Below, in pieces: positions 8,883-48,385 of a stretch of DNA of 58,323 nucleotides (position 1 is its first letter; each line of letters begins with the position of its first letter). Made by a program: the position numbers and the translations under genes. This stretch comes from Bacteroidota bacterium. GTDB lineage: Bacteria; Bacteroidota; JABWAT01. The DNA lies in assembly GCA_013360915.1 (NCBI GenBank), contig JABWAT010000015.1, positions 1 to 58,323 on the forward strand. Direction: 5' to 3'. The notes below the pieces were generated by a model that did not search any database, was not told the origin of the DNA, and was given only the letters and a program-made list of their open reading frames with translations.

Positions 8883-8936
8883 ACTGGAAATTCGGTCACT
8901 TTTACTCTCTCATCAGAAAACAGGAGACAAAAAACC

Positions 8937-12639: not shown

Positions 12640-12890
12640 TCGTTAATTCCTTTCTGTGCTGGCAGATGCCGGATAAAGATAAAAAGTACCAACGTAACCA
12701 ATGTATGGTGTGAACGGAAAGTAGGGACCCGACTGGAAAAAGAACCAAAACCGCTCTCTGATCAAACCAATCCACCATCAACTACGCATTGAAGTCTACT
12801 GATTATCACCAATCATGGCGAAATGGATCAGACCATAAATAGGAAATGGAGTCAGCACCGACCTTGCCGGAAAAATGAGAATGGTGAAAA

Positions 12891-15937: not shown

Positions 15938-17608
15938 ATGAGCAAGACCGGCAAAAACCTGATCGATCTGATTGTACTGTACAATCCGGAAAAAGAGGAC
16001 AAAGGCAATCCGTTCACCAACCGCAACCTGAAATCTGCCTCGACAACCGAGCTGGCAGACCGCCTGCAGCTCGATCCGCGTACCGCCATTCTGTATGCGG
16101 CCATGGTTACCATGTCCATCCGTCAGTCTTCACTGGATTTTGGCGATTTTTTCGGGAATCTGGGACTGAAGATGGCCGATAGTCCGTGGCTGTATCAATG
16201 CCTGCTGACACTGAAGGAAAGAAAGCTGATTTTTTTCGAACGGAATACGTTCTTTCATGAATCACGTGAGGGACTCTCCTTCTTCATTCCCCGTCGCCAT
16301 ATTCATGAAATACTGAAAGGTGAAGATCCTTCCACCGAGAATAAATTGCCCGATACCTTCGTTGATCTGATCGTTCGTGCCGAGCAGTTGGCCCGCTTAC
16401 CCGATGAAACCGATCTGACCCGCAGGGACGTGCTGAAAGAATTGTCGGGTCTGATTGAACACTGCGCCGGGATGAGTGAAATCCAGTGGCTGGTTAACCG
16501 TGTTACGGATCCCGAAGAACAACTGATCATGTTGCTGGCGGCCGGTGAATGTCTGAATATGAAAGAGGGACTGGATCTGGAAGAATTTTATGATAAATTC
16601 TGCGCCCATCATAAAAGTGAGGCCATTGTGAAAAAACAGATGGTGCTTCAGGGTAAACTCGGTGTCATCCGGAATAAAATGCTGGTCTTTATCAAGGATC
16701 ATTTCCGAAAATCACTGATCATGGAACTGACACCGTCGGTGGTGACCGACTGGCTGGGTCAGATTCAGAAAATGGATACGGACCAGTTACCCAACACCAA
16801 TCTGGGAGCATGGTCGCTGCCGGATAAAATACCGCCGGTCAGTCTGTCTTTTCCAACCGACCTGGAACCGCGGATCGGGATGATCAGGAAATTGCTGAGT
16901 GAGACCGGATACCGTGAGGTATCGACTCGGCTGAATACCCGGGCTGTATCAAAAGGATTGACCTTTTTATTCTACGGACGGCCGGGAACCGGTAAAACCG
17001 AGCTGGTTAATCAGTTGGCGAGGGAAAGCGGCCGGGCTGTTTTTAAGGTGAATATTTCGGAAATCCGGGATAAATGGGTGGGCGAAAGCGAGAAAAACCT
17101 CGAGAGCATCTTCTCTTATTTCGAAACGGTTAAAAAGGCACAGTCAGTTGAGCCCATTTTATTCTTTAATGAAAGCGATGCCCTCATCGGAAACCGCCTG
17201 AAGGTGAATTCCAGTGTGGATCAAATGAACAATGCCATGCAGAACATCCTGCTGGAAAAGCTCGAGACTTTTGACGGATTGTTTTTTGCCACGACCAATC
17301 TGCTTGAAAATCTGGATCCGGCCTTTGAACGCCGCTTCCTGTTCAAGATGGAATTCCCGATACCGCCGGCTGAAGTACGCGCCAGCATCTGGATCAGCCG
17401 GCTGCCCTTTCTGTCGGCCGATGAAGCGGCGATTCTGGCCGGCGATTTCGAACTCTCCGGCGGACAGATTGAAAACGTTACCAGAAAGTCCGAACTGGAA
17501 TCCATCCTGAGCGGCACCGACACCACGCTGAGTAAAATCATCGGCTTCTGTGAAGAAGAACTGCTGAACCGCAGCCTTAAAAAACCCATGGGATTTGCAT
17601 TAAAATGA
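15938..17608 (+). CDS. AAA-family ATPase with unknown N-terminal region
   Basis: A 556-residue protein whose last 210 residues form an AAA module: Walker A GRPGTGKTELV near residue 347, DKWVGESEKN as the pore-like/second-region segment, LFFNESDALIGNR near 408 as Walker B, and FERRFLFKMEF near 463 as the arginine-finger region. In Walker B the usual first aspartate is asparagine (FFNE for FFDE), although the catalytic glutamate is kept. The first 340 residues are helical and unfamiliar. It is followed by two unknown genes in the same direction and may remodel or load their products. Confidence 0.85.
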   Translation: MSKTGKNLIDLIVLYNPEKEDKGNPFTNRNLKSASTTELADRLQLDPRTAILYAAMVTMSIRQSSLDFGDFFGNLGLKMADSPWLYQCLLTLKERKLIFFERNTFFHESREGLSFFIPRRHIHEILKGEDPSTENKLPDTFVDLIVRAEQLARLPDETDLTRRDVLKELSGLIEHCAGMSEIQWLVNRVTDPEEQLIMLLAAGECLNMKEGLDLEEFYDKFCAHHKSEAIVKKQMVLQGKLGVIRNKMLVFIKDHFRKSLIMELTPSVVTDWLGQIQKMDTDQLPNTNLGAWSLPDKIPPVSLSFPTDLEPRIGMIRKLLSETGYREVSTRLNTRAVSKGLTFLFYGRPGTGKTELVNQLARESGRAVFKVNISEIRDKWVGESEKNLESIFSYFETVKKAQSVEPILFFNESDALIGNRLKVNSSVDQMNNAMQNILLEKLETFDGLFFATTNLLENLDPAFERRFLFKMEFPIPPAEVRASIWISRLPFLSADEAAILAGDFELSGGQIENVTRKSELESILSGTDTTLSKIIGFCEEELLNRSLKKPMGFALK

Positions 17609-19393: not shown

Positions 19394-21106
19394 ATGAAAA
19401 AACGATTTACTTTGATTTCTTTTGACCTAATCAGAACCGAAGAACCGGACATTTCATATTCAATCGCAACCATACTGGCTTACCTCCGTGCCGATGTGCA
19501 GATTTCAGAACAATATGATATCGATCATCTATCCATAAACCTGTACAGAGAGTACGAATCCCATTTTATCACCGATATTGATAAAGTAATACAGCATCTG
19601 GATGAGAAACTTATTCAGTCACCTGATGTGGTGGCACTTTCTGAATATATATGGTCAAGAAATCTGACGGGACCTGTTTCTGCGTATCTTAAACAACGAT
19701 TTCCAAGTGTAAAGCTGATTTTAGGCGGGCCAGAAATTACACCCGTCAGGGTGGAGCAGATTAGCGAAGGTTACCCATTTGCAGATCATCTGATCAGCGG
19801 TTATGCAGAGGAAGCACTGGCTGCGATTTTATTGGGCAAAAAAACTGACCTTTTAATAACTGGCTCCCCGGATTGCAATCGTCTGGTCTCTCCCTACCTT
19901 TCAAAGGTAATTACAATACATGATCAGGTCAAAATGCTTCGATGGGAGACAAAACGTGGGTGCCCATACAGATGCACCTTTTGCGAATGGAGTCAGGTAG
20001 CCGGCAGAAAAGTGATTGAGCTACCGATTGAAAGATTACATGAAGAATTAAAATTATTTTCCACTCTTAAAAATCTTGAGAAAATAAATGTACTGGATGG
20101 GACATTTAACACAAAGGACTCCTATCTGACCCTGATGGATGCAATGGGTGAATTAAAGGGGATCACTTTCAGTATACAGACAAGAATCGAAGCAATAAAA
20201 GGTAAAAACGGGGACAAGTTTTTAGAAAACCTGATCAGGTACAGGAATATCTTCCCGGAAGTTGGCATTCAAACCATTGTTCCTGATGAAATGGTCACAA
20301 TCGGGAGGGTAGAGAACAGAGAACAGGCTGGAAGGGAAATTGAGGAAATTAAAAGGGTTCTTCTCTTTTTCAGAGATAACAGGATAAAGTATAAAGCCGA
20401 TCTGATCTATGGCATACCGGGTCAGACAAAGAAAACTTTTACAGATAGTTTTCGCTTTCTGATCGATTGCGGAACAAAGAAATCAAACATCTCAACATTT
20501 CCGCTCAGAATACCAAAGAACAGCAAAATTAAGGAAGATGACACGAAAATCAGAGTTTATCCGATGTTCGAGGGTTGCCCGATTGACATTGTTAAGGAAT
20601 CATCCAGCTTTACAGCTGAAGAATGGAAGGATATAAACCGTAAATCCGGAACGATGAAGTTTGAGTTTAATGCGGAAAATTCCGGAGGATATGGGAAAAT
20701 ATTATTGGCAACCATACCAAAGGAATTCCGGCTTGTTATCCACTCCAAATTCGGGTACACAAGGTATAAAAAGCTGACAATCGGTTTACAGGTTACTGTT
20801 AATACACCATTTATCCGTTCATTCTTCCCGATAGTGGTCCGATGGAAAAGGGTCGGTCCAAAGGAATTTCAGCACATTATATTAACGAAATCGAATAAAA
20901 TTCTGATCAGAGATCAGAAAAGTCTTTTCTCTGGTTTCGAATATGGTGTCATCAGAAGTGTTGAAAAGGCCATTGATCCGCATGTATTTGATTTGCACGT
21001 AGATTCTTACCCCAGTCTCGATATTGCCAGGCAGAACATGGGTAATGGAGCACTTTTGAATTTCAAATACATTGATGAAAAAAAGTTCTTTTCCAGTGAA
21101 GAATAA
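19394..21106 (+). CDS. B12-binding-type radical SAM protein
   Basis: A 570-residue enzyme. An N-terminal Rossmann-like cobalamin-binding-type domain (residues 1-165, with LILGGPEITP near 110) precedes a radical SAM barrel, whose CxxxCxxC cluster motif is seen in RGCPYRCTFCEWS near residues 188-198; FSIQTRIEA, VGIQTIVPD and YGIPGQTKKTF are typical later barrel segments. Family members do methylations, ring rearrangements and sulfur chemistry, so the reaction cannot be named. It lies 78 nt before the Cad1-type gene in the same direction and may share its transcript. Its proximity to the micropeptide genes is noted as a finding. Confidence 0.85.
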   Translation: MKKRFTLISFDLIRTEEPDISYSIATILAYLRADVQISEQYDIDHLSINLYREYESHFITDIDKVIQHLDEKLIQSPDVVALSEYIWSRNLTGPVSAYLKQRFPSVKLILGGPEITPVRVEQISEGYPFADHLISGYAEEALAAILLGKKTDLLITGSPDCNRLVSPYLSKVITIHDQVKMLRWETKRGCPYRCTFCEWSQVAGRKVIELPIERLHEELKLFSTLKNLEKINVLDGTFNTKDSYLTLMDAMGELKGITFSIQTRIEAIKGKNGDKFLENLIRYRNIFPEVGIQTIVPDEMVTIGRVENREQAGREIEEIKRVLLFFRDNRIKYKADLIYGIPGQTKKTFTDSFRFLIDCGTKKSNISTFPLRIPKNSKIKEDDTKIRVYPMFEGCPIDIVKESSSFTAEEWKDINRKSGTMKFEFNAENSGGYGKILLATIPKEFRLVIHSKFGYTRYKKLTIGLQVTVNTPFIRSFFPIVVRWKRVGPKEFQHIILTKSNKILIRDQKSLFSGFEYGVIRSVEKAIDPHVFDLHVDSYPSLDIARQNMGNGALLNFKYIDEKKFFSSEE

Positions 21107-21184
21107 ACTTTGGATAAGTCATCGTTGATTTTCTCTTAATTTGAGCAGTTGCATGTATCGTTTATAAAAGCCAGGTATAAACCA

Positions 21185-23011
21185 ATGAAATTAACCACCC
21201 TTCTTTGTACCGCAGGAAAGTCACCAATGGTAGCAGTAGAAGCTGCTTATTTTCTGCCGGATGGGTTCGATACGGTTCATGTGATTACCACCAACCACAA
21301 GGATGTTGAGAAGGCGATTAACGACCTGCAGTCTGCCTTTTCTGCACTTCATTCCAGGACGGAGCTAAAAATAACGGTCACGACTGAAATCGCTGATTGG
21401 AAAACCCATCGGGATTTCGAAGAATTTGAGGAAATCTTATTCACGTGGTACCTGACTCATTATTCACCGGACCAAACGTGGGTATGTCTGAGTGGCGGAT
21501 ATAAATCCATTAGTGCCAGTATGCAGAAGGCAGCTGGCTGGTTTGGGGCAAGGGATATTTTCCATGTTCTGGTGGAAAACGAAAATAGTGTAAAAGCCTG
21601 GCAGGATGTGGAGATTGCAAGACAGGAACACCGTTTAACCTTTTTCAGCATGGGCCATGAACCCGGGTGGGCTTTTGCCCGTAATCTGGTTGGATTTACG
21701 AATAATACACAAATAACCGAATGGGGTTGGTCTGTTAAACCTGGCCCGCACCAGATCCGGTCCCATTTTGCCGGTGTTTTAAATCGGATTCAAAGTAACT
21801 TGTTTACAGGATTAGCTGGTCTTCCTTTCCGTTCATTGCAGTTCCTCAGTCCGGGAATTTGGGACTGGCTCCATCAACCCGTAAATGCACAAACGGATCG
21901 TGAATGGATTAGCCGGCTTCCCAAAATTGATCTTCATCTTCATCTGGGCGGATTCGCAACAGAAGGCACTTTGCTTGAAATAGTTCGGAATCGGGCAAAT
22001 GAGCCAGGCCTGCTGCCTTCTGAGATTCCAATTTCTTATCCTTCTCACTGGCCACTTCCAGCCGCCCCCATTGCATTAAACAGCTATATGACACTGGGAA
22101 ATAACAATGGATCAGCAATTCTATACGATCCGGGTTGTTTGAAGGAACAATGCAGGCAATTATTTAAATATTTAAAAAAGGAGCGGATTGTCTATGCAGA
22201 AATCAGGTGTTCGCCGGTTAATTATGCAAAAGGCCGATCACCGTTGTCGGTTTTGACTGCTATCAGAGAAACATTCCGTGAGTGCATTGAAGATAGTCGC
22301 AGTCGTCAGGAATTTACTCCACTTATTAATCTGATTATCATTGTGACCCGGAAAACAGAAGGGGATTTATCTTCCATAAGTAAGCATCTGGCACTTGCAG
22401 TGACTGCCTTCCAGGAATTTGACGACGGCCATGACGTGCAGTTGGTGGGGGTTGATCTGGCCGGATTCGAGAATAAGGAAACAAGGGCTGAGTATTACTC
22501 GGTGGATTTTGAACCCGTTCACCGGTGCGGGATTGCAGTAACTGCACACGCCGGCGAAAATGATGATGCTGAGGGAATCTGGCAGGCCGTTTACAAGCTT
22601 CATGCACGGCGCTTGGGACATGCCCTTCGATTGAACGATTCACCCGACCTTAAACGCACGGTACTGGAACGCCGGATTGGTGTGGAACTTTGCCCCTATT
22701 CCAATTATCAGACCAACCCGTTTTTCCTTGATGGGATACAGTCAGAAATCAGAACTCTGGAATACCCGTTACTTGATTATCTGAGAACTGGCATTGTAGC
22801 GTTTCCCAATACTGATAATCCGGGTATTTCTGGTGCAGGACTTACAGATAACTTCCTGCTGGCCAGCCGGCTGGCACCCGGACTCATGAGAATTGATCTG
22901 CTTCAGATGATCCGACATTCAGCCGAAGTAACGTTTCTGTTGCCGGATAAAAGACACCGTCTTATGGTAAGTCTTGAAGAAATGGTTTTGGAGAGTTTCA
23001 CCGGCCATTGA
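21185..23011 (+). CDS. cad1: CARF-adenosine deaminase effector (Cad1-type)
   Basis: A 608-residue fusion. Residues 1-150 are a CARF domain: an opening LLCTAGKSPMVAVEAAYFL strand-loop-helix, FDTVHVITTNHKDVEKA, and LSGGYKSISASMQKAAGW as the second nucleotide-binding loop. After a linker, residues 240-600 form an adenosine deaminase barrel: IDLHLHLGG near 248 (zinc His pair), AEIRCSPVNYA, VTAHAGEND near 452 (zinc His and catalytic Glu), RLGHALRL near 475 and FPNTDNPGIS near 540. Cad1 proteins convert ATP to ITP when cyclic oligoadenylate binds the CARF domain in type III CRISPR immunity. The second aspartate of the usual TDDP motif is asparagine here. Start at 21185 fits the CARF strand. Identity is strong; activity is inferred. 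Confidence 0.88.
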   Translation: MKLTTLLCTAGKSPMVAVEAAYFLPDGFDTVHVITTNHKDVEKAINDLQSAFSALHSRTELKITVTTEIADWKTHRDFEEFEEILFTWYLTHYSPDQTWVCLSGGYKSISASMQKAAGWFGARDIFHVLVENENSVKAWQDVEIARQEHRLTFFSMGHEPGWAFARNLVGFTNNTQITEWGWSVKPGPHQIRSHFAGVLNRIQSNLFTGLAGLPFRSLQFLSPGIWDWLHQPVNAQTDREWISRLPKIDLHLHLGGFATEGTLLEIVRNRANEPGLLPSEIPISYPSHWPLPAAPIALNSYMTLGNNNGSAILYDPGCLKEQCRQLFKYLKKERIVYAEIRCSPVNYAKGRSPLSVLTAIRETFRECIEDSRSRQEFTPLINLIIIVTRKTEGDLSSISKHLALAVTAFQEFDDGHDVQLVGVDLAGFENKETRAEYYSVDFEPVHRCGIAVTAHAGENDDAEGIWQAVYKLHARRLGHALRLNDSPDLKRTVLERRIGVELCPYSNYQTNPFFLDGIQSEIRTLEYPLLDYLRTGIVAFPNTDNPGISGAGLTDNFLLASRLAPGLMRIDLLQMIRHSAEVTFLLPDKRHRLMVSLEEMVLESFTGH

Positions 23012-23071: not shown

Positions 23072-23448
23072 CAACGGCAGGGTATGAGCAGCAGAATCGA
23101 GAAAAAGAAGCGTCAGACAACACCAGAAACCAATGGGTAATTGATATCAGATTTCCCTGAGGTAAACTCCATCATTTCAATCGGCCTACTTCTGTCCCAC
23201 AAGTTTCACTCATAAGAATGAAGGCCTGCTTTTCTGTTTACTTTTTACCAAATAGGATTGTACTGACTAAGTACACGAAATAGCCGAAACTCATAGTCAC
23301 TCCATTGTTAAAAATAAATAGAACTTTTGACCTTCTGACACGGAACCAGCCTGTAAGGAGTCAACGAGATACTGACAGACTTTACGGTGCCATTACCAAT
23401 CAATAAAATGGGCAGATTTCATATTTATCAGATCTTTTATGGTTCAGA
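23072..23448. other. Intergenic region, no gene seen
   Basis: No convincing reading frame or RNA signature between the terminator and the last small peptide gene. Confidence 0.35.
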
Positions 23449-23553
23449 TTAACAACCTTGATGTTTGGGAATTGTCTGACCGGTGATAATCCGGATAATA
23501 TCCACAACGCAGGTTGGAATACAAGGACCGGTGTCCGGGATGATTCGTTGCAT
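23449..23553 (-). CDS. Micropeptide, Ile/Pro-rich type (A7)
   Basis: A 34-residue peptide beginning MQRIIPDTGPCIPT and containing DIIRIITGQTIPKH. It shares the MQRI start, an IPTC segment and the xIIRxI core with A3 (24954) and A2 (25307). A GAAGGAA site lies about 13 nt upstream. It has three cysteines, more than any other copy. Confidence 0.6.
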   Translation of the reverse strand: MQRIIPDTGPCIPTCVVDIIRIITGQTIPKHQGC

Positions 23554-23578
23554 GATGTGCTATTCCTTCTATTGTTCT

Positions 23579-23683
23579 TCACAGATTAACAAGGTGCCTG
23601 ATATACCTTTTTGATACCATTGTATAAGAGACGAAAACCAGGTTGTTTTCCAGGATGTCTGCACTGGATTCTTTTTTTCTCAT
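23579..23683 (-). CDS. Possible small peptide between B6 and A7
   Basis: A 34-residue frame starting MRKKESSADILENN with a CAGGAG site 11 nt upstream. It does not resemble either peptide family. It may be a decayed A-type copy or a chance frame. Confidence 0.3.
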   Translation of the reverse strand: MRKKESSADILENNLVFVSYTMVSKRYIRHLVNL

Positions 23684-23712
23684 CTGGATTTACTCCTGGT
23701 TTCAGTTCTGTT

Positions 23713-23790
23713 TTATTTTTTATCCTCGCTGACGGCTGCAATGATCGAAATAATTGCAGTAGCGATGGCTACAATGGTTTTCGTTTGCAT
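23713..23790 (-). CDS. Micropeptide, Ala/Val-rich type (B6)
   Basis: A 25-residue peptide beginning MQTKTIVAIATAIISIIAA and ending SEDKK. The nine bases after the ATG and the ATG context match B2 and B4, and a GAAGGAG site lies 12 nt upstream. It is 4 residues shorter than B1-B4 and more Ile-rich in the middle; the whole central part should form a hydrophobic helix. The conserved upstream block is present at 23800-23855. Confidence 0.68.
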   Translation of the reverse strand: MQTKTIVAIATAIISIIAAVSEDKK

Positions 23791-24077
23791 AACGGTCTCT
23801 TTCTCCTTCTTGTTAAGTTTCCAACAGTAAAGAGAGAAAAACTGACCATTTTTCCAGATCACTCTGAAAAAAAAAGGAGTATCAGGGGGTGAATGGTTGA
23901 GGGATGCTGTTGAAGGGTTGGTAAATGTCATTTGCGTGTAAGTCGCATGGTCCGGGATAGCCAAAAGATAGCCTTGTTATTACAGGTTATTTGCAATGGA
24001 CTATGATCAATTTTTCATGCCTGGTGGGGCAGACAGTTGCTATGCCAGATAATGAACAAGGGAAGGCTGGTTGTTTT

Positions 24078-24209
24078 TTAGGGATTGTTGAATTGTTCAA
24101 GTCGTTGACCGGCTCGTCCATGTTCATCGTCTTCGTGAATTTCGGTTGCAATGGTACCCGGCGCAGTCGTAAAGGTTGAACGGATTGTGATGTTTGCTGC
24201 TGGCGACAT
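24078..24209 (-). pseudogene. Degenerate Ala-rich micropeptide copy (B5)
   Basis: The frame starts MSPAANITIRSTFTTAPGTI and goes on with ATEIHEDDE, clearly related to B3 (MSPAAIIAIVSAVVSAAGTI then ATAIQDDEE), but charged and polar residues break the hydrophobic core and the stop is lost, so it reads through to 43 residues. I treat it as a decayed copy. Confidence 0.6.
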
Positions 24210-24427
24210 GCTGATGCTTCCTGATTCTGAAAAGTTGCCAGGTTGAAAAGAGCAGGTAAGTCGAAATAATTGCAAGCACGGATTTACAGAACTGTGGAAT
24301 ATTTCCCGGAACTTTTTACAGAAGGTGCAACTGCTATTGCGTCATGATGATTTCTTGCTGCCGGTTACTTCAGGAAGTTGGGCCAATAAAAATCAGAAAC
24401 ATTTCAAGTATGCCCAGGAGCACACTT

Positions 24428-24449
24428 GACCCCCTTCAGAAAGGGGGTC
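24428..24449. terminator. Perfect 9-bp hairpin between peptide units
   Basis: GACCCCCTT (24428-24436) pairs perfectly with AAGGGGGTC (24441-24449), loop CAGA. It follows the A4 peptide on the minus strand. No T-run follows on either strand, so a terminator role is uncertain; RNA processing or stability is possible. Confidence 0.5.
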
Positions 24450-24480
24450 TGGAAATCGGACCAAAAATAATCCGTATGAT

Positions 24481-24534
24481 TTAAGGAATGCTGATCGGGA
24501 ATTCCGGTACGACTCTTTGTACGACTTTTTTCAT
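24481..24534 (-). pseudogene. Truncated Ile/Pro-rich micropeptide (A4)
   Basis: The frame gives 17 residues (MKKVVQRVVPEFPISIP) and stops at TAA. Reading past the stop gives IIRIIFGPISRP, which matches the IIRFIIRDLIGP tail of A3. So a single base change of a GAA codon created the stop. The ribosome-binding site (ACAGGAGGTAACC) is intact and begins right after the B4 stop. Confidence 0.62.
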
Positions 24535-24546
24535 GGTTACCTCCTG

Positions 24547-24636
24547 TTATTTTTTGTCCTGGTCAACAGCAGAGACAATGGTGGCAGCTGCGGCGACTAC
24601 AGCACTGGCGATGGCAACAATGGTCTTGGTTTGCAT
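24547..24636 (-). CDS. Micropeptide, Ala/Val-rich type (B4)
   Basis: A 29-residue peptide beginning MQTKTIVAIASAVVAAAATI and ending VSAVDQDKK. It differs from B2 by only two residues (VS for AS, with nearly identical DNA). A GAAAGGA site lies upstream, and the conserved upstream block sits at 24650-24715. It should form one hydrophobic helix with a polar, charged tail. Confidence 0.75.
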   Translation of the reverse strand: MQTKTIVAIASAVVAAAATIVSAVDQDKK

Positions 24637-24953
24637 AGCGGTTCGTATCCTTTCAATTTAGTTTGGAACCAAAAGATAAGAGGAAAGAACCCGAAGGATT
24701 TCCAGTTTCCTGTGAAAAAATTATTGAGATAGAAAAGAATGGGAGTTGTGGCGGGGTAAGTAAATGTGGGATGTATCAGTTCCAGTCATCCGGACCAGAA
24801 TGCAAAAAGAGATGGCAAAACAAGGCTCAAGATTGGGAACAGGCTGGATTCCAATCAATCACAGTATAAACTCACCCGCCAATGTAAAGTCGTGGTGACA
24901 GCCAGTTTATGACAGGTTGAATGCATCGGATCATTGACGGCCGCCTTGTTTTA

Positions 24954-25049
24954 TTAAACGGGGCCAATTAAATCACGGATAATAAACCGGATGATTTCTG
25001 GAATGCATGTTGGAATATTTGGGACAGAAACCTGAATAATTCGTTGCAT
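24954..25049 (-). CDS. Micropeptide, Ile/Pro-rich type (A3)
   Basis: A 31-residue peptide beginning MQRIIQVSVPNIPTCIPEII and ending RFIIRDLIGPV. It starts 9 nt after the B3 stop; its GGAG site overlaps that stop (TAGGAG), so B3 and A3 are translationally linked. It shares the RDxxGPV tail with A1. Confidence 0.7.
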   Translation of the reverse strand: MQRIIQVSVPNIPTCIPEIIRFIIRDLIGPV

Positions 25050-25058
25050 GGATTGCTC

Positions 25059-25148
25059 CTATTCTTCGTCGTCCTGAATGGCGGTGGCAATAGTGCCAGC
25101 GGCAGAAACAACGGCTGATACAATGGCGATAATTGCTGCAGGTGACAT
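25059..25148 (-). CDS. Micropeptide, Ala/Val-rich type, acidic tail (B3)
   Basis: A 29-residue peptide beginning MSPAAIIAIVSAVVSAAGTI and ending ATAIQDDEE. Same length and same IAIxSAVVxAAxTI core as B2 and B4 but without N-terminal lysine and with an acidic rather than lysine-ending tail. An AAAAGGAAAAG site precedes it. A related decayed copy is at 24078. Confidence 0.7.
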   Translation of the reverse strand: MSPAAIIAIVSAVVSAAGTIATAIQDDEE

Positions 25149-25185
25149 GGTGGTAACTTTTCCTTTTAATTGGTTACTAAGACTT

Positions 25186-25284
25186 TCAAAGTTTAAAAAC
25201 CTGATTTTTTCCTGATCCGGGTTTAATGACCCGTCCATTTCCTTTCTGATTTTTCTGCTTCAGTAACAACTGTTTTTGCGGCAT
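25186..25284 (-). pseudogene. Probable frameshifted micropeptide relic
   Basis: Directly after A2, a GGAAGGAAG site and an ATG open a 32-residue frame (MPQKQLLLKQKNQKG...). In the frame shifted by two bases the start reads AKTVVTEAEKSE, reminiscent of the QTKTIVAIA start of the B family. I take it as a decayed B copy, though a real lysine-rich peptide cannot be excluded. Confidence 0.35.
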
Positions 25285-25306
25285 AACGGTTACTTCCTTC
25301 CGGCTT

Positions 25307-25399
25307 CTATTTAATAATGGTGCTGACAATGATCCGGATGATGGCCGGAATACCGGTGGTGGTAATGATTTCTTCGGTACTTGGTGCAATTCTTTGCAT
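25307..25399 (-). CDS. Micropeptide, Ile/Pro-rich type (A2)
   Basis: A 30-residue peptide beginning MQRIAPSTEEIITTTGIPAI and ending IRIIVSTIIK. It starts 14 nt after the B2 stop behind a CTGGAGG site. Shared with the other A copies: MQRI start, a proline, then the IIRII core. Confidence 0.7.
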   Translation of the reverse strand: MQRIAPSTEEIITTTGIPAIIRIIVSTIIK

Positions 25400-25413
25400 G
25401 GTGTTACCTCCAG

Positions 25414-25503
25414 TTATTTTTTGTCCTGGTCAACGGCAGAAGCGATGGTGGCAGCTGCGGCGACTACAGCGCTGGCGATGGCAACAATGGTCTTGGTTTG
25501 CAT
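25414..25503 (-). CDS. Micropeptide, Ala/Val-rich type (B2)
   Basis: A 29-residue peptide beginning MQTKTIVAIASAVVAAAATI and ending ASAVDQDKK, nearly identical to B4. It has a GAAAGGA site 12 nt upstream, and the conserved block at 25515-25580. The DNA from this gene through its upstream region (25414-25740) is a diverged duplicate of 24547-24890. Confidence 0.75.
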   Translation of the reverse strand: MQTKTIVAIASAVVAAAATIASAVDQDKK

Positions 25504-25818
25504 AGCGGTTCGTATCCTTTCTTTTTAGTGGTGATCAACTGATAAGAGGAGAGAACCTGAAAGATTTCCAGTTAACTGTAAGAAAAAGTATTGAGCTGGA
25601 AGTGAATGAGCGTTGTGTCTGGGAAGGTAAATGTGGGATGTATCATTTCCGGCCATCCGGACCAGAATGCAAAAAGAGAATGCAACAGGAGGCTTAAGAT
25701 AGGAACCTGGCTCGATACAAATCAATCACAGTCACGCCCCCCCCAGCCGATGCATAGTCGGGTTGGCAGTCTGTTATTGACAGGTTGGATGCGTCATATC
25801 ATTGTTGGCCATTCTGCT

Positions 25819-25917
25819 TTACTGTACAGGACCGGTGATATCACGTATAATAATCCGGATAATGACCGGTGTGGTGGTCGGGATTGATGTATCGGTACCT
25901 GCTATGATGGGTGACAT
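25819..25917 (-). CDS. Micropeptide, Ile/Thr-rich type (A1)
   Basis: A 32-residue peptide beginning MSPIIAGTDTSIPTTTPVII and ending RIIIRDITGPVQ. It starts 14 nt after the B1 stop behind a CGGAGA site. The IIRIII core and RDxxGPV tail match A3. Confidence 0.7.
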   Translation of the reverse strand: MSPIIAGTDTSIPTTTPVIIRIIIRDITGPVQ

Positions 25918-25931
25918 GGATCGGTCTCCGT

Positions 25932-26021
25932 TTACTTTTTGCCCTGATCGACAGCAGTGACAATAGCAGCAGCGGCGGTGACAACGGCGCTTGCAATGGT
26001 GATGATCGTTTTTGTTTGCAT
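25932..26021 (-). CDS. Micropeptide, Ala/Val-rich type (B1)
   Basis: A 29-residue peptide beginning MQTKTIITIASAVVTAAAAI and ending VTAVDQGKK. It is the first small gene after the Card1-type nuclease gene, 81 nt downstream on the same strand. A GAAGGAAAAGGA run precedes the ATG. The base changes relative to B2 are largely silent or conservative (T for A, I for V), which suggests the peptide sequence is under selection. Confidence 0.75.
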   Translation of the reverse strand: MQTKTIITIASAVVTAAAAIVTAVDQGKK

Positions 26022-26030: not shown

Positions 26031-26095
26031 TTTCCTTCTATTAATAATCTGACCAACAGATAAGAGTGGCAAAGTCTGAACTTTTCCAAAAAGGC
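26031..26095 (-). promoter_or_regulatory. Conserved block upstream of Ala/Val-rich peptide genes
   Basis: Read on the minus strand, this block has TGGAAA, a few bases, TTCAG, then CTCTTATCTGTTGG about 25 nt before the ribosome-binding site. Equivalent blocks lie upstream of B2 (about 25525-25580, CCTCTTATCAGTTGA), B4 (about 24655-24710, CCTCTTATCTTTTGG) and B6 (about 23805-23855, CTCTCTTTACTGTTGG). Non-coding conservation at a fixed distance suggests a promoter or regulator site for each unit. Confidence 0.55.
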
Positions 26096-26102: not shown

Positions 26103-27539
26103 TCAGATCAGCCTTTCAGAGCGGAAAAAGGAGTTCAGGGGGCGGATCTGAACCTGAGGAAAACCGGGAGATTCCTCTCTGGTTATGCCTTTTGAACCTG
26201 TCATCCACAGGGTGACAGGTTCCTGTGAATCGGTCATGGCATAAAAAGGTATATTTTTCATCTGAAGATCATTGGGGAGCAGTTGTATTTGTCTATCCAT
26301 TGCATCACTGTCAAGGTCAGCAAAGTAGAAGGGAATAACAGCAATTAATTTACCGAAGCGTCCGCCAGCTTTTTGCAGGTTGTAAATGCGGGCATCTGCA
26401 TCCTTTTTATCAAAGGAATAGCTTTTTGCATCCACTGATAGTAACTGACCGCTTGTGGTAACAATCAGTAAATCAATCTCTGCGTTTGATGGCAGTTTGC
26501 CTGAAACAGGGGTTATTTCCACATTAGCAATTGCTTCGCTCAGTTTCGACGGTTTTTCCTGCTGAATCAGGGATTGAAAAGAATTCAGAACGGATCGTTC
26601 AAAATAATCGGAAGGACGTCGCATTCCGGTGAGCCTTTCAAATTCTTCCATTGATACAGAAACCTGATTTCGACCAAAAAACCGGGTCAGTTCCGGATCG
26701 GTAACTGTGAAGTCTGGTGAGGAACCGTCTGTGATCATATCCCTGATGAAACTACTGGTCAGCCAGTTACCCAGTTTACCGGGAATACTGGTTTCCATTT
26801 CCCGGAAAACTGCATTCAGTTCTTTTGGTGTGCCAATCTCCTTTTTGAAAAGCTGAATAAAGTCAGTGACCTTTTTTCTGATTTCAGGTTTTCGTTTTTC
26901 GAGCAATGTCCTGAATTCATTTAATGAAATATCCGTGGAAGAGGGAAGCTGGGAATATACGGCCTTCATCCAGCCACGGAATTCTGAGTTACTGTAAAAA
27001 TCTGTAACCGGGTCTAAGCCGGATACCGGATAGATGGAAACTGATTTATCAGTTTTTAACAAACGATAGTTGAAGGCTGTTAATATCTCCTCCGCGGTCA
27101 GGTTGACTGATAGGGTGGTGGTTTCCAGTTTTGGTTCATTGCGAAAAATCAGCCATGTTTCCAATTGTTGATTTACCGGATTCGCATAACATGCACGATC
27201 GGGAATACCAGCCTGGTTCCGCCCGAGAAATAATTGCCAGCAGGCCAGTTGCTGGGGCTTCTGGCCACCACCCAGGCACCAGATAACCGGTTCGGAGGTG
27301 GGTAGCCGTTGCCTTACAACCCGGATTATTTCGTCAATTCTGCTATCCTGGTCTGATTTCAGAATGACCGGTTCGGTGACCCGGATTGAATGACTCTGCA
27401 TCACCTGAATGAGACCTGTTGACCAACCTTCACCATTGGCCCGGGAGGTTTCGATGGGCATGAAGGAAGAAATTCCCAATTGAATAGCAGGAACCAGGTT
27501 ACTGCTGTTTTGTTCCGTTGAAACTCCAATCATCAGCAT
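26103..27539 (-). CDS. CARF-PD-(D/E)XK nuclease (Card1/Can2-type effector)
   Basis: A 478-residue protein. The first 150 residues have CARF character: MIGVSTEQNSSNLVPAIQLG as the first strand and loop, and PVIWCLGGGQKPQQLACWQL around residue 98 where Card1/Csm6-like proteins have a TGGxK-type loop. The last third is a PD-(D/E)XK nuclease: NAEIDLLIVTTSGQLL then SVDAKSY near residue 370. Proteins with this layout (Card1, Can2) are cyclic-tetra-adenylate-activated nucleases of type III CRISPR systems. Start at 27539 follows GGGAG by 8 nt. The gene faces away from the array's leader side and ends 81 nt before the micropeptide genes. Assignment from layout; the nuclease substrate is not predictable. 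Confidence 0.78.
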   Translation of the reverse strand: MLMIGVSTEQNSSNLVPAIQLGISSFMPIETSRANGEGWSTGLIQVMQSHSIRVTEPVILKSDQDSRIDEIIRVVRQRLPTSEPVIWCLGGGQKPQQLACWQLFLGRNQAGIPDRACYANPVNQQLETWLIFRNEPKLETTTLSVNLTAEEILTAFNYRLLKTDKSVSIYPVSGLDPVTDFYSNSEFRGWMKAVYSQLPSSTDISLNEFRTLLEKRKPEIRKKVTDFIQLFKKEIGTPKELNAVFREMETSIPGKLGNWLTSSFIRDMITDGSSPDFTVTDPELTRFFGRNQVSVSMEEFERLTGMRRPSDYFERSVLNSFQSLIQQEKPSKLSEAIANVEITPVSGKLPSNAEIDLLIVTTSGQLLSVDAKSYSFDKKDADARIYNLQKAGGRFGKLIAVIPFYFADLDSDAMDRQIQLLPNDLQMKNIPFYAMTDSQEPVTLWMTGSKGITREESPGFPQVQIRPLNSFFRSERLI

Positions 27540-27753
27540 GATGAATACTCCCTTTGATGAATCCAATTACCGGAATGCATGTTTAAAAATAAGCCTGAAG
27601 AAAATAAAAGGAAATGGTCCTGCTGAAACCGGTAGTTAACCATAGTTTGCCCCAAATTGGGTTGTTTTGAACCAAAAATCCCATTGACTGGCATCAACAA
27701 ACACCGGGCTACCCAACCGGACAAAGGAACAGACAAGAAGAATACTGTCACGG

Positions 27754-28936
27754 TTGCCTTGTCCTCACGAGCAAATCAATTCTCAAAATATGAAAGAACC
27801 AATAGGTTCCATCATGGAAGAAGAATCAGAAATAGTCGCAATACCCTCACGGGTAAATCAATTCTCTAAATGCGCAACTTAACTGGTCCAGCACCTGTGG
27901 ACCGGCGGACGTCGCAATACCCTCACGGGTAAATCAATTCTCTAAATCATTCGACCCTCTTTTTATAATATTTCCTTACAAAAAAAAATGTCGTAATACC
28001 CTCACGGGTAAATCAATTCTCTGAATAAGTAGAGTCGAAAGACAAAATCATGCTATCGTTGAAAAAAGAAAATGATAAGGAGTCGCAATACCCTCACGGG
28101 TAAATCAATTCTCTAAATTTGGATACCCTAAAACCGTTCATTTCGCAATCATTGCTTGCAGCTTTGTCGCAATACCCTCACGGGTAAATCAATTCTCTAA
28201 ATTTAAACTCAAAGAGTCAATTCACCTCAATTGAGGAAGACAGTGTCGCAATACCCTCACGGGTAAATCAATTCTCTAAATTGTGACACCTCTGTAGCTT
28301 AGGCGTAAGAAAAAACAATAAATTGTCGCAATACCCTCACGGGTAAATCAATTCTCTAAATGGTTATCCGGAACATTATTCCCCGACTACGAATCGGCGA
28401 ATATTGTCGCAATACCCTCACGGGTAAATCAATTCTCTAAATAGACCATAATACAACAGATACAGGAGACAACGTCATCGAGACCGTCGCAATACCCTCA
28501 CGGGTAAATCAATTCTCTAAATAGTAATATCTTTGGCACATCAGGCTGGACGCAAGGCATTGAGTGTCGCAATACCCTCACGGGTAAATCAATTCTCTAA
28601 ATAATGCACACTGGTATGCTGTAGCAATGGCTGGTTTGCCAATTGTGACGTCGCAATACCCTCACGGGTAAATCAATTCTCTAAATAGGTTCTGTCCGCC
28701 AAGACAGACGAGCAGCTCCGCGCAGCAATGGTTATGTCGCAATACCCTCACGGGTAAATCAATTCTCTAAATTTGCCTCTAACTGGTTAAGTGCCAAATT
28801 GAGGGCACTTGAAACCTATCGTCGCAATACCCTCACGGGTAAATCAATTCTCTAAATGGTGAGTTTAAGAAATTAAGCTTGCTGCGCTCGTCCCGTTAGG
28901 TCGCAATACCCTCACGGGTAAATCAATTCTCTAAAT
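27754..28936 (-). CRISPR. CRISPR array 1 (type III-A, 14 repeats plus a decayed one)
   Basis: Fourteen 37-bp repeats start at 27835, 27911, 27990, 28082, 28166, 28245, 28325, 28406, 28486, 28566, 28650, 28736, 28821 and 28900. The repeat reads GTCGCAATACCCTCACGGGT then AAATCAATTCTCTAAAT on the plus strand. The copy at 27990 has two changes, and a degenerate copy lies at 27754-27789. Spacers are unusually variable, 39-55 bp. On the minus strand the repeat has an ACCC-GTGA-GGGT hairpin and ends in ATTGCGAC, like the ATTGAAAC tag of type III/I-B repeats, so transcription should run minus, with the leader at the right next to cas2 and the decayed end at the left. Confidence 0.96.
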
Positions 28937-29762: not shown

Positions 29763-32138
29763 TCACCATTTGAAATGCCATGGAGAAAAATGAGCTCTCT
29801 TACCAGTCAGGTACTCCGCAAGTTCTGTAGCCGTTTCATAAAAAATCACATCCAGACAGGTCTCTTTACCGTGATGGTAAAAGGGTGCATATAACCGGTC
29901 AAGAACCAGTCTTGCAATTGCCTGTTTGACCGGAGGCGAAAACGTGTTGCCTGAATGATGAAGTTTATGCAGCCGGAATGCTTTCAGTATGGCCCGGTCG
30001 ACCAGCGGTTGCCTGAATATTTCAACCAGATCAAAAACAAGGGTTGGTTTTATTTCCTGATCGGAGTGCAGATAGGAAATCAGCGGATTGAGGCCCGCAT
30101 GCACCACAGCAGATAACATCCGGTTATACAGAATACCATACCCATAATTTAAGGAGGCATTAACCAGATCGGTGGCCCCCCGCCTGACCCTGCCTTCAAA
30201 GGGAATTGTGTCTGGCAGCAAATATCTGAAAACCCGCCACCAGGAAGAAGCCGCCAGTCCTTCATAACCCATCAGGCTTGCAGATCGTGACGAGAAATCA
30301 CCTGTAAAGGACAGTTCCGTAATCCGCTTACGGTATTCTGCCATGCGAGTAAGTTCTTCGGCGATCCAATCGGGTGCAGGGTTCTCTGGTACCCGTTGTT
30401 TCATGAAGTACCGGATGACCGCTTCCTGATTGATAATCTTGGATAACACCAACGATTGAGCAATGGTAAATCCTTTGATATTACGGGTTGCCTGTTCCTG
30501 GAAACGGGAAACCTCCCAACCCACATATTCGGGTGAAGTGAGAAAACCCATCGGGGTTCCGTCAGAACTTAATAGTTCAATGCGTATTCCTTCTTTGGCA
30601 CAATCAAGAAGCAGGTCAGAGGATATGGAGCATTTCCTGGCCGAAATGGCTACAGAGCGGAGTGTTGAAAGTGGTTTACTCTTAATGATTTTATTACCTG
30701 CCCTCAGAACTGCGTTAGATCCGGATCTGCCTAAAATTGACCCGGGCTCATCTGCAAGCAGATCGAACCGAAAAGAAAGCAACCGGTTGTAGTACCGCTT
30801 TTTTCGTTCAATTTTCCGCTTGACCGTTTCACCAGCCGGTTTGGCGGATGGTGTTGATTGATCCTCAGCAGGAGAAAAGGGGTGTGGTGCGTCTGAATTG
30901 GCGCTTGTGGCCAACCGTGCGGTAACAGTGGGTTGCCCAGGTGACATTTTTTGACCACGATTCAGAATGACTGGTGCAGGGGGCCACCGCAGAAGCGAGA
31001 TGGTTTTAAGATCGGGAAGCATTCGTTTTAACAGGTCGTTGATTTCAGTTTTTGACTTTCCTTTTTCAGACAATGCCGGGATTGCCTGATACCGTATTTC
31101 CTCCAGAACCTTTCCTTCAAGAATTTTTAATTGGCCGGCCGTTTCCCATGGCCCATAGTAGTGGTGCCATCCTGCCACCAGTTCATTGATATGATGCAAC
31201 CATGCTTTTGGATCCTCTTTTAAAAAGTGCCTGTACTGATGTATGGTTTGATCGGCTCTTTCCATTTTCCCGGGTGCAATGGACCGTTGAACGGCAGCAG
31301 TGCCATCCATGATTGAAAATTGAATGCCACAAAATGAAAAAGGTTGGTTAACCGGTTGGGGTTCGGGTCTGGTGTCATTTAATTTCAGTTTCAATGGGTC
31401 GGCAAGGTAGGCGATTGCAGCGGGAATATGGGAAGATACACAATCAGCTGTCCGTCCCAGAAAGAGAAAATTATCTGCATACCGGACGTAATGAAATCCT
31501 TTTCTGTCGGTTATTACCGCCTGATCGAAACCAGTCAGGTACCAATTGCTGAGCAGAGGAGAAAGAACGCCACCTTGCGGGATACCGACTGTCCTGTCAA
31601 ACCAGACACCACAGCGGATGGATCCCATGCGGGTCCATAATTCCAAAAGATTCAACATCCAGTCATCCTGAATAACCGGGGCTATTTGCTTTCGCAATAC
31701 GGTGTGATTGATGGAATCGAAATAATTATCAATATCGGCCTGCCAGATAAACCCATGTCCGCACTGGATCATTCCGCTGATGGCCCGGATCATAAGCTGG
31801 TGTCCTTTTCCTGGACGGTAGGCATAGGAAAAGGGGGAAAACAGGGGTTCGAGAACCGGTTCAATCTGTCGTTTAACAACCAGTTGTGCCAGTTTGTCCC
31901 GAACCGTCAGCAGTGAAATTTTGCGATAGTCACCAGATCCTGGTTTGGGAATACTGATTGTCAGCGGTGGGTCGGGTGTATAATGACGCTCGTTCAGGTC
32001 GGTGAGTAACTGTTCCAGATTCTGATCGAGCCGTAACCCGAAGTCACGAAGTGAAACCTGATCGACTCCGCCCCCCTTTCCCTTCACCTTAATCAGTTGC
32101 CAACCGGCTTCCAGTTCCTGTTTGCTGGTCTGCCACAT
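29763..32138 (-). CDS. cas1: Reverse transcriptase-Cas1 fusion
   Basis: A 791-residue fusion. Residues 1-330 are a group-II-intron-like reverse transcriptase: KISLLTVRDKLAQ, YAYRPGKG near 108, motif A QADIDNYFDSI near 136, GIPQGGVLSPLLSN near 188, and motif C as YADN (about residue 218) where YADD is usual. A maturase-like thumb region and a proline-rich linker follow. Residues 455-791 are Cas1: ELLSSDGTPMGF, SLMGYEGLAASSWW with the catalytic Glu, YLHSDQE with the His, and TLVFDLVEIFRQP with the Asp. Such fusions allow spacer capture from RNA. It is 6 nt from cas6. The first aspartate of motif C is present but the second is Asn, so cDNA synthesis needs testing. Confidence 0.93.
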   Translation of the reverse strand: MWQTSKQELEAGWQLIKVKGKGGGVDQVSLRDFGLRLDQNLEQLLTDLNERHYTPDPPLTISIPKPGSGDYRKISLLTVRDKLAQLVVKRQIEPVLEPLFSPFSYAYRPGKGHQLMIRAISGMIQCGHGFIWQADIDNYFDSINHTVLRKQIAPVIQDDWMLNLLELWTRMGSIRCGVWFDRTVGIPQGGVLSPLLSNWYLTGFDQAVITDRKGFHYVRYADNFLFLGRTADCVSSHIPAAIAYLADPLKLKLNDTRPEPQPVNQPFSFCGIQFSIMDGTAAVQRSIAPGKMERADQTIHQYRHFLKEDPKAWLHHINELVAGWHHYYGPWETAGQLKILEGKVLEEIRYQAIPALSEKGKSKTEINDLLKRMLPDLKTISLLRWPPAPVILNRGQKMSPGQPTVTARLATSANSDAPHPFSPAEDQSTPSAKPAGETVKRKIERKKRYYNRLLSFRFDLLADEPGSILGRSGSNAVLRAGNKIIKSKPLSTLRSVAISARKCSISSDLLLDCAKEGIRIELLSSDGTPMGFLTSPEYVGWEVSRFQEQATRNIKGFTIAQSLVLSKIINQEAVIRYFMKQRVPENPAPDWIAEELTRMAEYRKRITELSFTGDFSSRSASLMGYEGLAASSWWRVFRYLLPDTIPFEGRVRRGATDLVNASLNYGYGILYNRMLSAVVHAGLNPLISYLHSDQEIKPTLVFDLVEIFRQPLVDRAILKAFRLHKLHHSGNTFSPPVKQAIARLVLDRLYAPFYHHGKETCLDVIFYETATELAEYLTGKRAHFSPWHFKW

Positions 32139-32144
32139 GGTGGT

Positions 32145-33191
32145 TCAGATCACAAAGTCGCCTGGTGGTGAGAGTTGGGTGCCATGGACCCGGTAATGTC
32201 CGAACCCAAACGTGGTATGCCGTCCCAGTGATAGATACTGACCACACCACAGTAACGGAAAAAGGTCTGTCCAGGGAGGATATATGGTGGCTGATCCTGT
32301 AAAGCCGTACCACACCTGTGAGGACTGATGCCGGTTGCTGTATCGTTTGACTGAATGCCAGCGGAGACCGGACTGAACCGGGGGAAGCGGACCATGCCAG
32401 AATGGCCGGTCATCTGCTTTGGCTGACTGATGGAAGTGAGCCAGGATCGCCAGACGTTCCAACAGACTGTCTGCTACCTTCTGAACCGAAAAAGGCGCAT
32501 TTTCCGGGCCGGGTCCCATCAGACGACCGCTGCTTTTTAGATTAACCGGAGTATTGAAATGAATCAGGAGCGGGGCGGAACGATCGAGCCCGGCAGCGAC
32601 CTGTGTGGCTTCTGCAATCAGATCGTTGAGCATCAGCGGACTGAATGTGCCGATCTGCCGGTCAGCTGATTCGTACAAAAGTGTTCGTTTACCGCTCCAG
32701 GATGAAAGAAAAACCCGCTGAACGGAAAACCGGCCCCTGTATGGGCCGTCTTCGCCGGAAAGTCTACCGGCTTGTTCCATTGCATAAATGAAGAGAGGCA
32801 GAGCCTGAACCGCCTGCCCAAACAGGTTCATCCGCAAACGAAATGCAGACCGGACCGTTTTATCCGGATTCACCTTACTCTTTGGAGGAATAATCAGATA
32901 GGGTCTGGGAATATCGCTTCCTTTAAACCAGGGCAGACTGTCGGTGTTGGCAGGCTCCATCCATCTGAAATAGGAACAGCCCGATTGAAGCGTACACGGA
33001 TTACAATCCTGCAGTCCTGCCTGACGGTCCGGGTGCGTGCAGATCATCTGTTTGAGGGCGCGTGCAAACAACCCCCTGAAAACACTTCCCGAAAATTCGG
33101 GGACTGACAGCCTGCTCTGTGCCTTCAGATGAAATTCGAGCGGGAGAATCAGCAGATCCCCAGGCAGTGCTGCATTTGTAAAAACGTTCAT
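32145..33191 (-). CDS. cas6: Cas6-type CRISPR RNA endonuclease (PF10040-like)
   Basis: A 348-residue RAMP protein. FSGSVFRGLFARALKQMIC near residues 35-55 and CNPCTLQSGCSYFRWMEP with four cysteines resemble the N-terminal half of the Cas6_C (PF10040) group; SLGRHTTFGFGHYRV near residue 325 is the glycine-rich RNA-binding loop. Cas6 cuts precursor crRNA inside the repeat and leaves the 8-nt tag. Its start overlaps the end of the csx-like gene by 4 nt. This is the second cas6 in the locus; which repeat each cuts is not clear. Confidence 0.85.
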   Translation of the reverse strand: MNVFTNAALPGDLLILPLEFHLKAQSRLSVPEFSGSVFRGLFARALKQMICTHPDRQAGLQDCNPCTLQSGCSYFRWMEPANTDSLPWFKGSDIPRPYLIIPPKSKVNPDKTVRSAFRLRMNLFGQAVQALPLFIYAMEQAGRLSGEDGPYRGRFSVQRVFLSSWSGKRTLLYESADRQIGTFSPLMLNDLIAEATQVAAGLDRSAPLLIHFNTPVNLKSSGRLMGPGPENAPFSVQKVADSLLERLAILAHFHQSAKADDRPFWHGPLPPVQSGLRWHSVKRYSNRHQSSQVWYGFTGSATIYPPWTDLFPLLWCGQYLSLGRHTTFGFGHYRVHGTQLSPPGDFVI

Positions 33192-33550
33192 TCATACTCC
33201 CTGAACCGGACAAAGGAAAAGCGGACCAGTTTACGGCCGTCGCCGGTTTCTGACGAATCCCGTTCAGAAGTGGTTGCCAGGCACCGGATTCCTGCTTCCC
33301 GCAACCGCCTGACCAGTGAGTACGTCATGCTCATTTCCCCCATTAACAGTACCACATCGTTTACAGGGTCATTCAGGTGACTTTTCAGAAGGGAAGCTGT
33401 TTTCTCTGCCAGTTCAGACAGTTCTGAGGTACTCATGGCCGGACTGACGGCAGGAAACGCAACATCCAGAATCTCACCAAATTGAGCAGCCGCCTCTGTC
33501 TGAGCAGCAGACCACCCCGCCGAGGGGTGGTTTGTGCAATTGATCAGCAC
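33188..33550 (-). CDS. Small csx-like protein, possible nucleotide-signal module
   Basis: A 120-residue protein with a Rossmann-like pattern: MLINCTNHPSAGWSAAQTEA as a first strand and loop, DVVLLMGEMSMTYSLVRRL near residues 65-83, GIRCLATTSERDS near 86-98, and FSFVRFREYE as a final strand. I recall similar proteins near type III systems. Small single-domain families of this kind (Csx15/Csx16/Csx20) have been proposed as ring nucleases that degrade cyclic oligoadenylate, but I cannot say which family this belongs to. It starts 1 nt after csm5's stop. Confidence 0.55.
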   Translation of the reverse strand: MLINCTNHPSAGWSAAQTEAAAQFGEILDVAFPAVSPAMSTSELSELAEKTASLLKSHLNDPVNDVVLLMGEMSMTYSLVRRLREAGIRCLATTSERDSSETGDGRKLVRFSFVRFREYE

Positions 33551-33551
33551 C

Positions 33552-36121: not shown

Positions 36122-36122
36122 C

Positions 36123-36806: not shown

Positions 36807-36808
36807 GG

Positions 36809-37273: not shown

Positions 37274-37275
37274 GA

Positions 37276-39849: not shown

Positions 39850-39869
39850 GATGGATTCCCATTTCCTTT

Positions 39870-40667: not shown

Positions 40668-40763
40668 CGATTTCCCCGAGTATCAATACAATGAAATTGG
40701 GTATTATTTATTTTTTTAATGATTAAAAGTCAATTAAATTTTATTTCGGATCGGATAAATGGG

Positions 40764-42334: not shown

Positions 42335-42358
42335 CGGATTCTGTTCTTCTTCAGATTA

Positions 42359-44902: not shown

Positions 44903-44937
44903 CAGAAAAAAGGGTGGGTTAGTCAATGGAAACGATC

Positions 44938-48382: not shown

Positions 48383-48385
48383 GGT

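Follow-up and report, generated by a model that had tools for sequence, protein, structure and literature searches.

Comparison with described systems

Two pathways that join a sigma factor to a CRISPR (clustered regularly interspaced short palindromic repeats) system have been described, those of CASP-sigma and CalpS. CASP-sigma, from the type III-E system of Desulfonema ishimotonii, is held by an inhibitor that a CRISPR-linked protease cuts, and its sites lie upstream of cas1 and of two uncharacterized genes, one of which encodes a predicted membrane protein (PMC10028731); few such sites are known. The CalpL-CalpT-CalpS system of Sulfurihydrogenibium unites a Lon-family protease, CalpT and a sigma factor in one type III-linked set, and the available parts of the Calp papers name no regulon or target genes (PMC11417357, PMC12751052). 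Here we analyse a contig of 58,323 nucleotides (nt) from a Bacteroidota bacterium of the GTDB lineage JABWAT01 (JABWAT010000015.1, assembly GCA_013360915.1), hereafter the window, which is the entire contig C15 of a 3.65-Mb assembly. It holds a type III-A CRISPR system with a tandem cluster of paired micropeptide genes, named B and A, and a two-box promoter-like element that precedes both these genes and the cas genes. In our explanation membrane-acting micropeptides are probably co-expressed with the cas genes by a CRISPR-linked sigma factor.

CASP-sigma, with Csx30 and Csx29, is the closest precedent: there as here, a (putative) sigma factor is encoded in the CRISPR locus, and a common motif stands upstream of cas1 and other genes of the locus. 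The present system differs in that it belongs to type III-A and has RT-Cas1 together with cyclic-oligoadenylate effectors; its sigma-like protein is accompanied by MazF-like proteins and a Lon-family protease instead of Csx30 and Csx29, and the element is found before the cas10-csm operon and the repeated micropeptide genes as well. The likeness to CalpL-CalpT-CalpS is that a type III-linked set joins a Lon-family protease to a putative sigma factor and a candidate MazF-like partner, whereas here the Lon protein showed no cA4-sensing SAVED domain, there are two MazF-like proteins, and the sigma-like protein has 376 residues. Neither CASP-sigma nor CalpL/T/S involves micropeptides. The sigma logic is a variant of a described kind; the micropeptide output is new.

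A promoter-like element shared by micropeptide and cas genes

The element, CTGGAAA-N15-yCTCTTATC, stands ahead of B1, B2, B4, B6 and A6; it had gone unnoticed in an earlier note on this DNA, made from the bare sequence, in which the peptide genes were described. The core TGGAAA-N17-TCTTAT is found at B1, B2 and B4 and as an exact copy at A6, while B6 has the variant TCTTTA (positions in Table 1). The homology of B1 and B2 begins at the TGGAAA box, 67 nt ahead of the start codon. As the A6 element is not part of the duplicated block described below, it is probably independent of the duplicated copies. The spacing of the boxes is fixed at 17 nt, and the element precedes several starts by 23-39 nt.

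Allowing for spacers of 16 to 18 nt (TGGAAA-N16-18-TCTTAT), the 3.65-Mb genome contains eight matches against one in a reversed control; seven of the eight, all with N17, are on the C15 contig. With the peptide cluster excluded, there are three exact sites in 55.6 kb of the contig, whereas the remaining 3.6 Mb of the genome have a single one (Poisson p about 6e-7). In a non-circular test, a position weight matrix (PWM) was made from the five peptide sites alone and run on the rest of the window and on 400 kb of contig C1. By their two boxes, five non-peptide sites of the window scored 21-25, compared to a maximum of 17.4 in the 400 kb of chromosome, and four of them precede genes, namely the cas10-csm operon, cas2-cas1, a DUF1232 gene and a predicted membrane-protein gene. 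Scoring of all 33 columns kept three of these sites above the highest value of the chromosome, whereas those at cas2 and 12734 did not exceed it because their spacer sequences differ. With one mismatch allowed, the eight matches on other contigs were not clearly above the control (5), so that the element set is local. The exact element occurs in three of 30 relatives, with one match in each. The proposal of the earlier note that the peptides are controlled by the type III response thus receives strong support: the same promoter element stands before them, the cas operon and cas2-cas1, and it is nearly confined to the contig.

Micropeptide genes and evidence for their translation

All starts given earlier for the four B-A pairs and for the single or decayed copies B5, B6 and A6 are present on the minus strand, and the cluster does lie between two CARF effectors, the Card1-type gene on one side and Cad1 on the other. 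The gaps within the first four pairs, put at 9-14 nt, measure 14, 14, 9 and 12 nt, and a Shine-Dalgarno-like sequence (SD) before every start agrees with the claim that each gene has its own ribosome-binding site. The listing needs three corrections: an in-frame stop after 17 codons cuts A4 short, B5 has diverged and its frame is lengthened, and B6 and A6 are 159 nt apart, A6 having its own promoter element.

The minimum numbers of changes at codon positions 1, 2 and 3 are 20, 7 and 31 among the B copies (permutation p=5e-5), and 22, 23 and 32 among the A copies (permutation p=0.03). Pooled proportions of synonymous and non-synonymous differences (pS/pN) are 0.67/0.21 for B and 0.64/0.36 for A; synonymous differences outnumber non-synonymous ones by 18 to 7 between B1 and B2 and by 4 to 1 between B2 and B4, these pairwise comparisons not being mutually independent. 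The excess at third positions, for which the earlier note had proposed to look, makes a strong case that the B peptides are translated and constrained, and a moderate, less firm one for the A peptides.

The B peptides contain a hydrophobic Ala/Val/Ile segment (maximum 18-residue Kyte-Doolittle mean 2.1-2.4) and are the most hydrophobic among the SD-preceded micro-ORFs (small open reading frames) of the window. The A peptides are amphipathic and composed largely of Ile, Arg and Pro, with a hydrophobic moment of up to 0.85. Net charge ranges from +2 to -4 in B and from 0 to +2 in A. Membrane activity would fit the composition of both peptides, and toxicity may be surmised. Tandem genes for amphipathic or hydrophobic peptides of 25-34 residues without leaders also recall a two-peptide leaderless bacteriocin, as the earlier note had suggested, or modulin-like secreted peptides; aureocin A70, a multi-peptide leaderless bacteriocin, likewise comprises leaderless peptides of about 30 residues from adjacent genes. 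Unlike in aureocin A70, however, no exporter or immunity gene was found among the window genes tested (which do not cover every small ORF), the charge is not uniformly cationic, and promoters interrupt the cluster, their elements being of the cas type. The suggestion is weakened accordingly, and we regard it as very improbable.

Searches for relatives returned only the cluster itself: no homologue of B turned up when its profile was run on 394 phylum genomes, genome_contigs and viral_contigs and its sequence on phages and plasmids, and none of A when its profile was scanned over its own genome and viral_contigs. The flanks of 30 Cad1 loci (mostly from Verrucomicrobia and Bacteroidota) hold no homologue of A or B, and no B, no A and not the possible 18-residue peptide of Table 1 has a Pfam match below E 0.1. 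The earlier note had held that lack of a pair conserved in relatives would speak against its proposal; as to B, the collections searched bear out that lack, whereas the synonymous-site excess between copies, which it had also named, is present.

Tandem history of the cluster

Self-comparison reveals a two-pair cassette of ca. 872 bp that was duplicated and partly decayed. The segment B1A1-B2A2 (26040-25328) matches B3A3-B4A4 (25168-24466) at an offset of 872 over 718 columns with 73.7% identity (E=2e-130), single pairs align at offsets of 518 and 512, and the third cassette (B5, B6, A6) is decayed. Along the 872-bp offset identity is uneven, with 63% in B1, 60% in A1, 74-82% in the spacer, 94% in B2 and 54% in A2. 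The low value of A2/A4 right beside the high one of B2/B4 suggests a later, limited gene conversion over the spacer and B2 that spared A2/A4. Directly past the truncated A4 lies a strong G+C-rich hairpin, GACCCCCTTTCTGAAGGGGGTC (24418-24460, minus strand).

The spacers were not found as a dispersed repeat beyond the cluster. Structured RNA in them seems unlikely, there being no Rfam match and a folding like that of shuffled sequences (z 0.6 and -0.6). These results bear on the idea that the genes encode type I toxin-like or addiction peptides in a defence island, their proximity to CRISPR being incidental. The Ldr and Ibs families of E. coli are tandem type I toxins with short hydrophobic paralogues, which the present tandem copies of short hydrophobic peptides resemble, and the long conserved spacers between the pairs could hold a regulatory RNA. 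Yet those spacers fold no better than shuffles and match nothing in Rfam, and antisense promoters over the cluster amount to consensus-level matches only. Unlike Ldr and Ibs, the genes form two-gene pairs, share promoter elements with the cas operons and give no evidence of an antisense RNA; to our knowledge, no type I toxin is a conserved two-gene pair of the B-A kind. We think this origin improbable.

A putative sigma-factor module

Between cas2-cas1 and the end of the window lie genes for a MazF-like protein, a sigma-like protein, a third protein and a Lon-family protease, the sigma-like gene being some 640 nt from the cas2-cas1 operon. CalpT is a MazF-like protein as well. The 376-residue sigma-like protein itself has no Pfam match and no credible sequence match in the PDB. 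Sub-threshold matches were obtained with its homologues: L098 matches both Sigma70_r2 (E 0.0046) and Sigma70_r4_2 (E 6e-4), each at the end where it is expected, and L096 matches Sigma70_r4_2 (E 8e-4); a profile of four sequences has WhiG as its only PDB match (E 0.096). A single-sequence fold was uninformative (predicted local distance difference test, pLDDT, 42). The four-sequence AlphaFold model has a pLDDT of 54, with residues 20-130 mostly at 70-84, and its top 50 PDB matches by Foldseek are mostly sigma factors (E. coli sigmaE region 2, target template-modelling score 0.55-0.61).

The order MazF-like, sigma, third gene is kept in four of four genomes, those of the window and three others. 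One of these, G215, carries a type III-A RT-Cas1 system (RT-Cas1 31% identical over 782 residues), and directly upstream of its module lies a Csx3-domain ORF (L096 3-431, plus strand; 20.8 bits against a cut-off of 21.0). From the matches of the sigma-like homologues, the conserved module and the type III-A context in G215 we infer a CRISPR-linked sigma module that is the best candidate reader of the element. The Csx3-domain ORF could also point to a sensor or regulator. In the Lon-family protein EGDS and PDK align to DGDS and NEK of archaeal Lon, so keeping the Ser-Lys dyad; the match to PADLOC SAVED-Lon models is limited to residues 168-226, which belong to the Lon part, and the PDB match to CalpL has E 0.13 over 34 residues.

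A copy of the element also lies inside the sigma-like gene. The codons for conserved Leu-Glu and Ser residues of this protein (CTG GAA ... TCT) do not differ among four homologues of about 20% identity (window 49724-49752, plus strand; L096 1217-1246, plus strand; L098; L099), so that the copy may have a conserved regulatory function within the gene or be a coincidence of codons.

Locus setting

On the minus strand the cas operon is followed by a CRISPR array, the CARF-PD-DExK gene and the micropeptide cluster, with Cad1 convergent from the far side. The CARF-PD-DExK protein has no sequence match in the PDB, and relatives of this Card1 gene were found neither in the 394 phylum genomes, viral contigs or plasmids nor in the flanks of the 30 Cad1 loci. 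Several components come in twos on the contig: CRISPR arrays, which differ in their repeats (27735-28936 and 44690-47100), Cas6-like proteins, and adaptation modules, one with RT-Cas1 and the other a type I-B-like Cas1-Cas2. A gene for an ADP-ribosylglycohydrolase (42778-43617, minus strand; E 5e-37) lies in the interval from the cas operon to the second array. Further genes on the plus strand encode an AAA ATPase related to the anti-phage ATPase IetA (15938-17608; E 1e-22), after which come two unmatched genes, and, downstream of the sigma/Lon module, a MazG-like protein and then a Schlafen group 3 helicase (53362-55562; E 9e-102).

A protein with B12-binding and radical SAM domains is encoded on the plus strand at 19394-21106, at a distance of 2.1 kb from where the cluster ends. 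The micropeptides might be precursors that this enzyme modifies, but it matches a separate phage-defence candidate (PDC-M51A, E 1e-65), its gene lacks the element and lies on the opposite strand beyond Cad1, and the peptides are leaderless; we find this scarcely credible.

Table 1. Positions of the micropeptide genes, promoter-like elements and other features in the window
Feature	Positions	Strand	Remarks
B1 micropeptide, 29 residues, MQTKTIITIASAVVTAAAAIVTAVDQGKK	25932-26021	-	SD; third-position excess versus other B copies
A1 micropeptide, 32 residues, MSPIIAGTDTSIPTTTPVIIRIIIRDITGPVQ	25819-25917	-	SD
B2 micropeptide, 29 residues	25414-25503	-	DNA 94% identical to B4; 4 of 5 differences synonymous
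A2 micropeptide, 30 residues	25307-25399	-	
B3 micropeptide, 29 residues	25059-25148	-	start 158 nt past A2; own promoter boxes not intact (8 nt wider apart)
A3 micropeptide, 31 residues	24954-25049	-	
B4 micropeptide, 29 residues	24547-24636	-	
A4, decayed	24481-24534	-	in-frame TAA after 17 codons
B5, diverged copy	24078-24209	-	lengthened frame; degenerate promoter (PWM 13.0)
B6 micropeptide, 25 residues	23713-23790	-	
A6 micropeptide, 34 residues	23449-23553	-	own promoter element
Possible third micropeptide, 18 residues, MSFGYFVYLVSTILFGKK	23238-23294	-	SD; no promoter element seen
Promoter-like element of B1	26060-26088	-	TGGAAA-N17-TCTTAT
Promoter-like element of B2	25542-25570	-	
Promoter-like element of B4	24676-24704	-	
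Promoter-like element of B6	23828-23856	-	TCTTTA
Promoter-like element of A6	23624-23652	-	outside duplicated block
Element ahead of cas operon (cas10-csm)	42718-42746	-	exact; 29 nt from first gene
Element upstream of cas2-cas1	48824-48852	-	exact
Element ahead of DUF1232 gene at 8937	8885-8913	+	23 nt from gene
Element ahead of predicted membrane-protein gene at 12891	12734-12762	+	128 nt from gene
Element inside sigma-like gene	49724-49752	+	
MazF/PemK-like protein, first module gene	48885-49367	+	ORF listed from TTG 48879; weak PemK/MazF match E 0.0056; synteny conserved
Sigma-factor-like protein, 376 residues, candidate reader of element	49360-50490	+	homologue Sigma70_r2/r4 matches; Foldseek matches mostly sigma factors
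Third module protein, candidate anti-sigma	50453-51646	+	MazF-like stretch and Gly-rich hydrophobic stretch
Lon-family (S16) protease domain	51643-52788	+	Ser and Lys align with archaeal Lon
Type III-A cas operon, 12 genes	29763-42688	-	three unknown genes, Cas6, Cas10, csm genes, Cas6-like, RT-Cas1
CRISPR array	27735-28936		between cas operon and Card1-type gene
CARF and PD-DExK (Card1/Can2-type) effector	26103-27566	-	PADLOC CARF4--CARF_PDDEXK E 2e-8
Cad1 (CARF-adenosine deaminase)	21149-23011	+	PADLOC CARF_ADA 9e-144; PDB 9c67 6e-159
cas2-cas1, second adaptation module	47282-48715	-	
WYL-domain regulator	2840-3832		PADLOC WYL E 5e-29

Discussion

In the explanation we prefer, Cas10 would sense phage RNA and a signal would reach the Lon-family protease through an intermediate sensor; the protease would relieve the inhibition by the MazF-like or anti-sigma-like partners, and the freed sigma factor would drive transcription of the cas operon, cas2-cas1, the DUF1232 and predicted membrane-protein genes and the peptide pairs. 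The B peptide, as a single hydrophobic Ala/Val helix, and the amphipathic, Ile/Arg/Pro-rich A would perturb the inner membrane and slow phage production, alongside Card1 as a nuclease and Cad1 as an ATP deaminase. The links that join Cas10 with the protease, and the peptides with the membrane, are ones that we infer. Taken whole, this explanation, of tandem-amplified B-A micropeptide genes wired into type III-A transcription and acting at the membrane, seems to us evenly poised between right and wrong.

Several points weigh against it. Neither CARF gene (Card1, Cad1) carries the element, and we can explain no role for the site inside the sigma-like gene. Within the collections searched the peptides are confined to one genome and thus have no independent conservation. 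All individual Foldseek matches of the sigma-like protein lie above E 0.5, on a low-confidence model, and neither a SAVED domain in the protease nor a cyclic-oligoadenylate sensor in the module came to light. The putative link between sigma-like protein and element is drawn from adjacency; in G215, the element was seen only inside the sigma gene and is absent from the partial cas contigs scanned, which do not cover the cas-operon starts. The last two points also favour a rival in which the peptides are co-regulated, with the element read by the WYL-domain protein, the main alternative reader and a member of a group linked to CRISPR regulation, or by a housekeeping sigma factor and an activator, while the sigma module serves otherwise. 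Two boxes at a fixed spacing, shortly before several starts, nonetheless resemble a promoter and not a repressor site, and the sigma-like protein that the locus does encode belongs to a module found again, in G215, next to a Csx3-domain ORF; we judge this rival unlikely, albeit a serious contender.

A further point is that octanol-scale transfer energies of the B segments are near zero, which makes their stable insertion into the membrane uncertain. This weak predicted insertion, together with the co-regulation with other membrane-protein genes (DUF1232 and 12891), would suit protective or accessory peptides, such as regulators of membrane proteins or stabilizers during infection, instead of growth-arresting effectors. 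No direct point speaks against such a role, to which we assign a real but minor chance.

The type III membrane effectors Cam1, Csx23 and Cap1 have the same end point that we hypothesize for the micropeptides, the inner membrane. They are, however, proteins that bind cyclic oligoadenylate and are activated by this ligand, whereas the peptides of 25-34 residues have no sensor domain and are apparently controlled by transcription. It is possible, though we advance it with some doubt, that infection releases a CRISPR-encoded sigma factor, which then induces paired membrane micropeptides from a tandem battery of genes. The result would be a transcriptionally triggered membrane-attack arm of type III immunity, in which, unlike in these ligand-gated proteins, tandem duplication would tune copy number and peptide diversity.

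Within a single type III-A system the locus presents a predicted and compact set of targets, comprising interference genes, adaptation genes, two further genes and the paired micropeptides, and with it the question of what a CRISPR sigma factor turns on, and why, becomes directly testable. Micropeptides below the normal length of annotation may be among the outputs of CRISPR systems.

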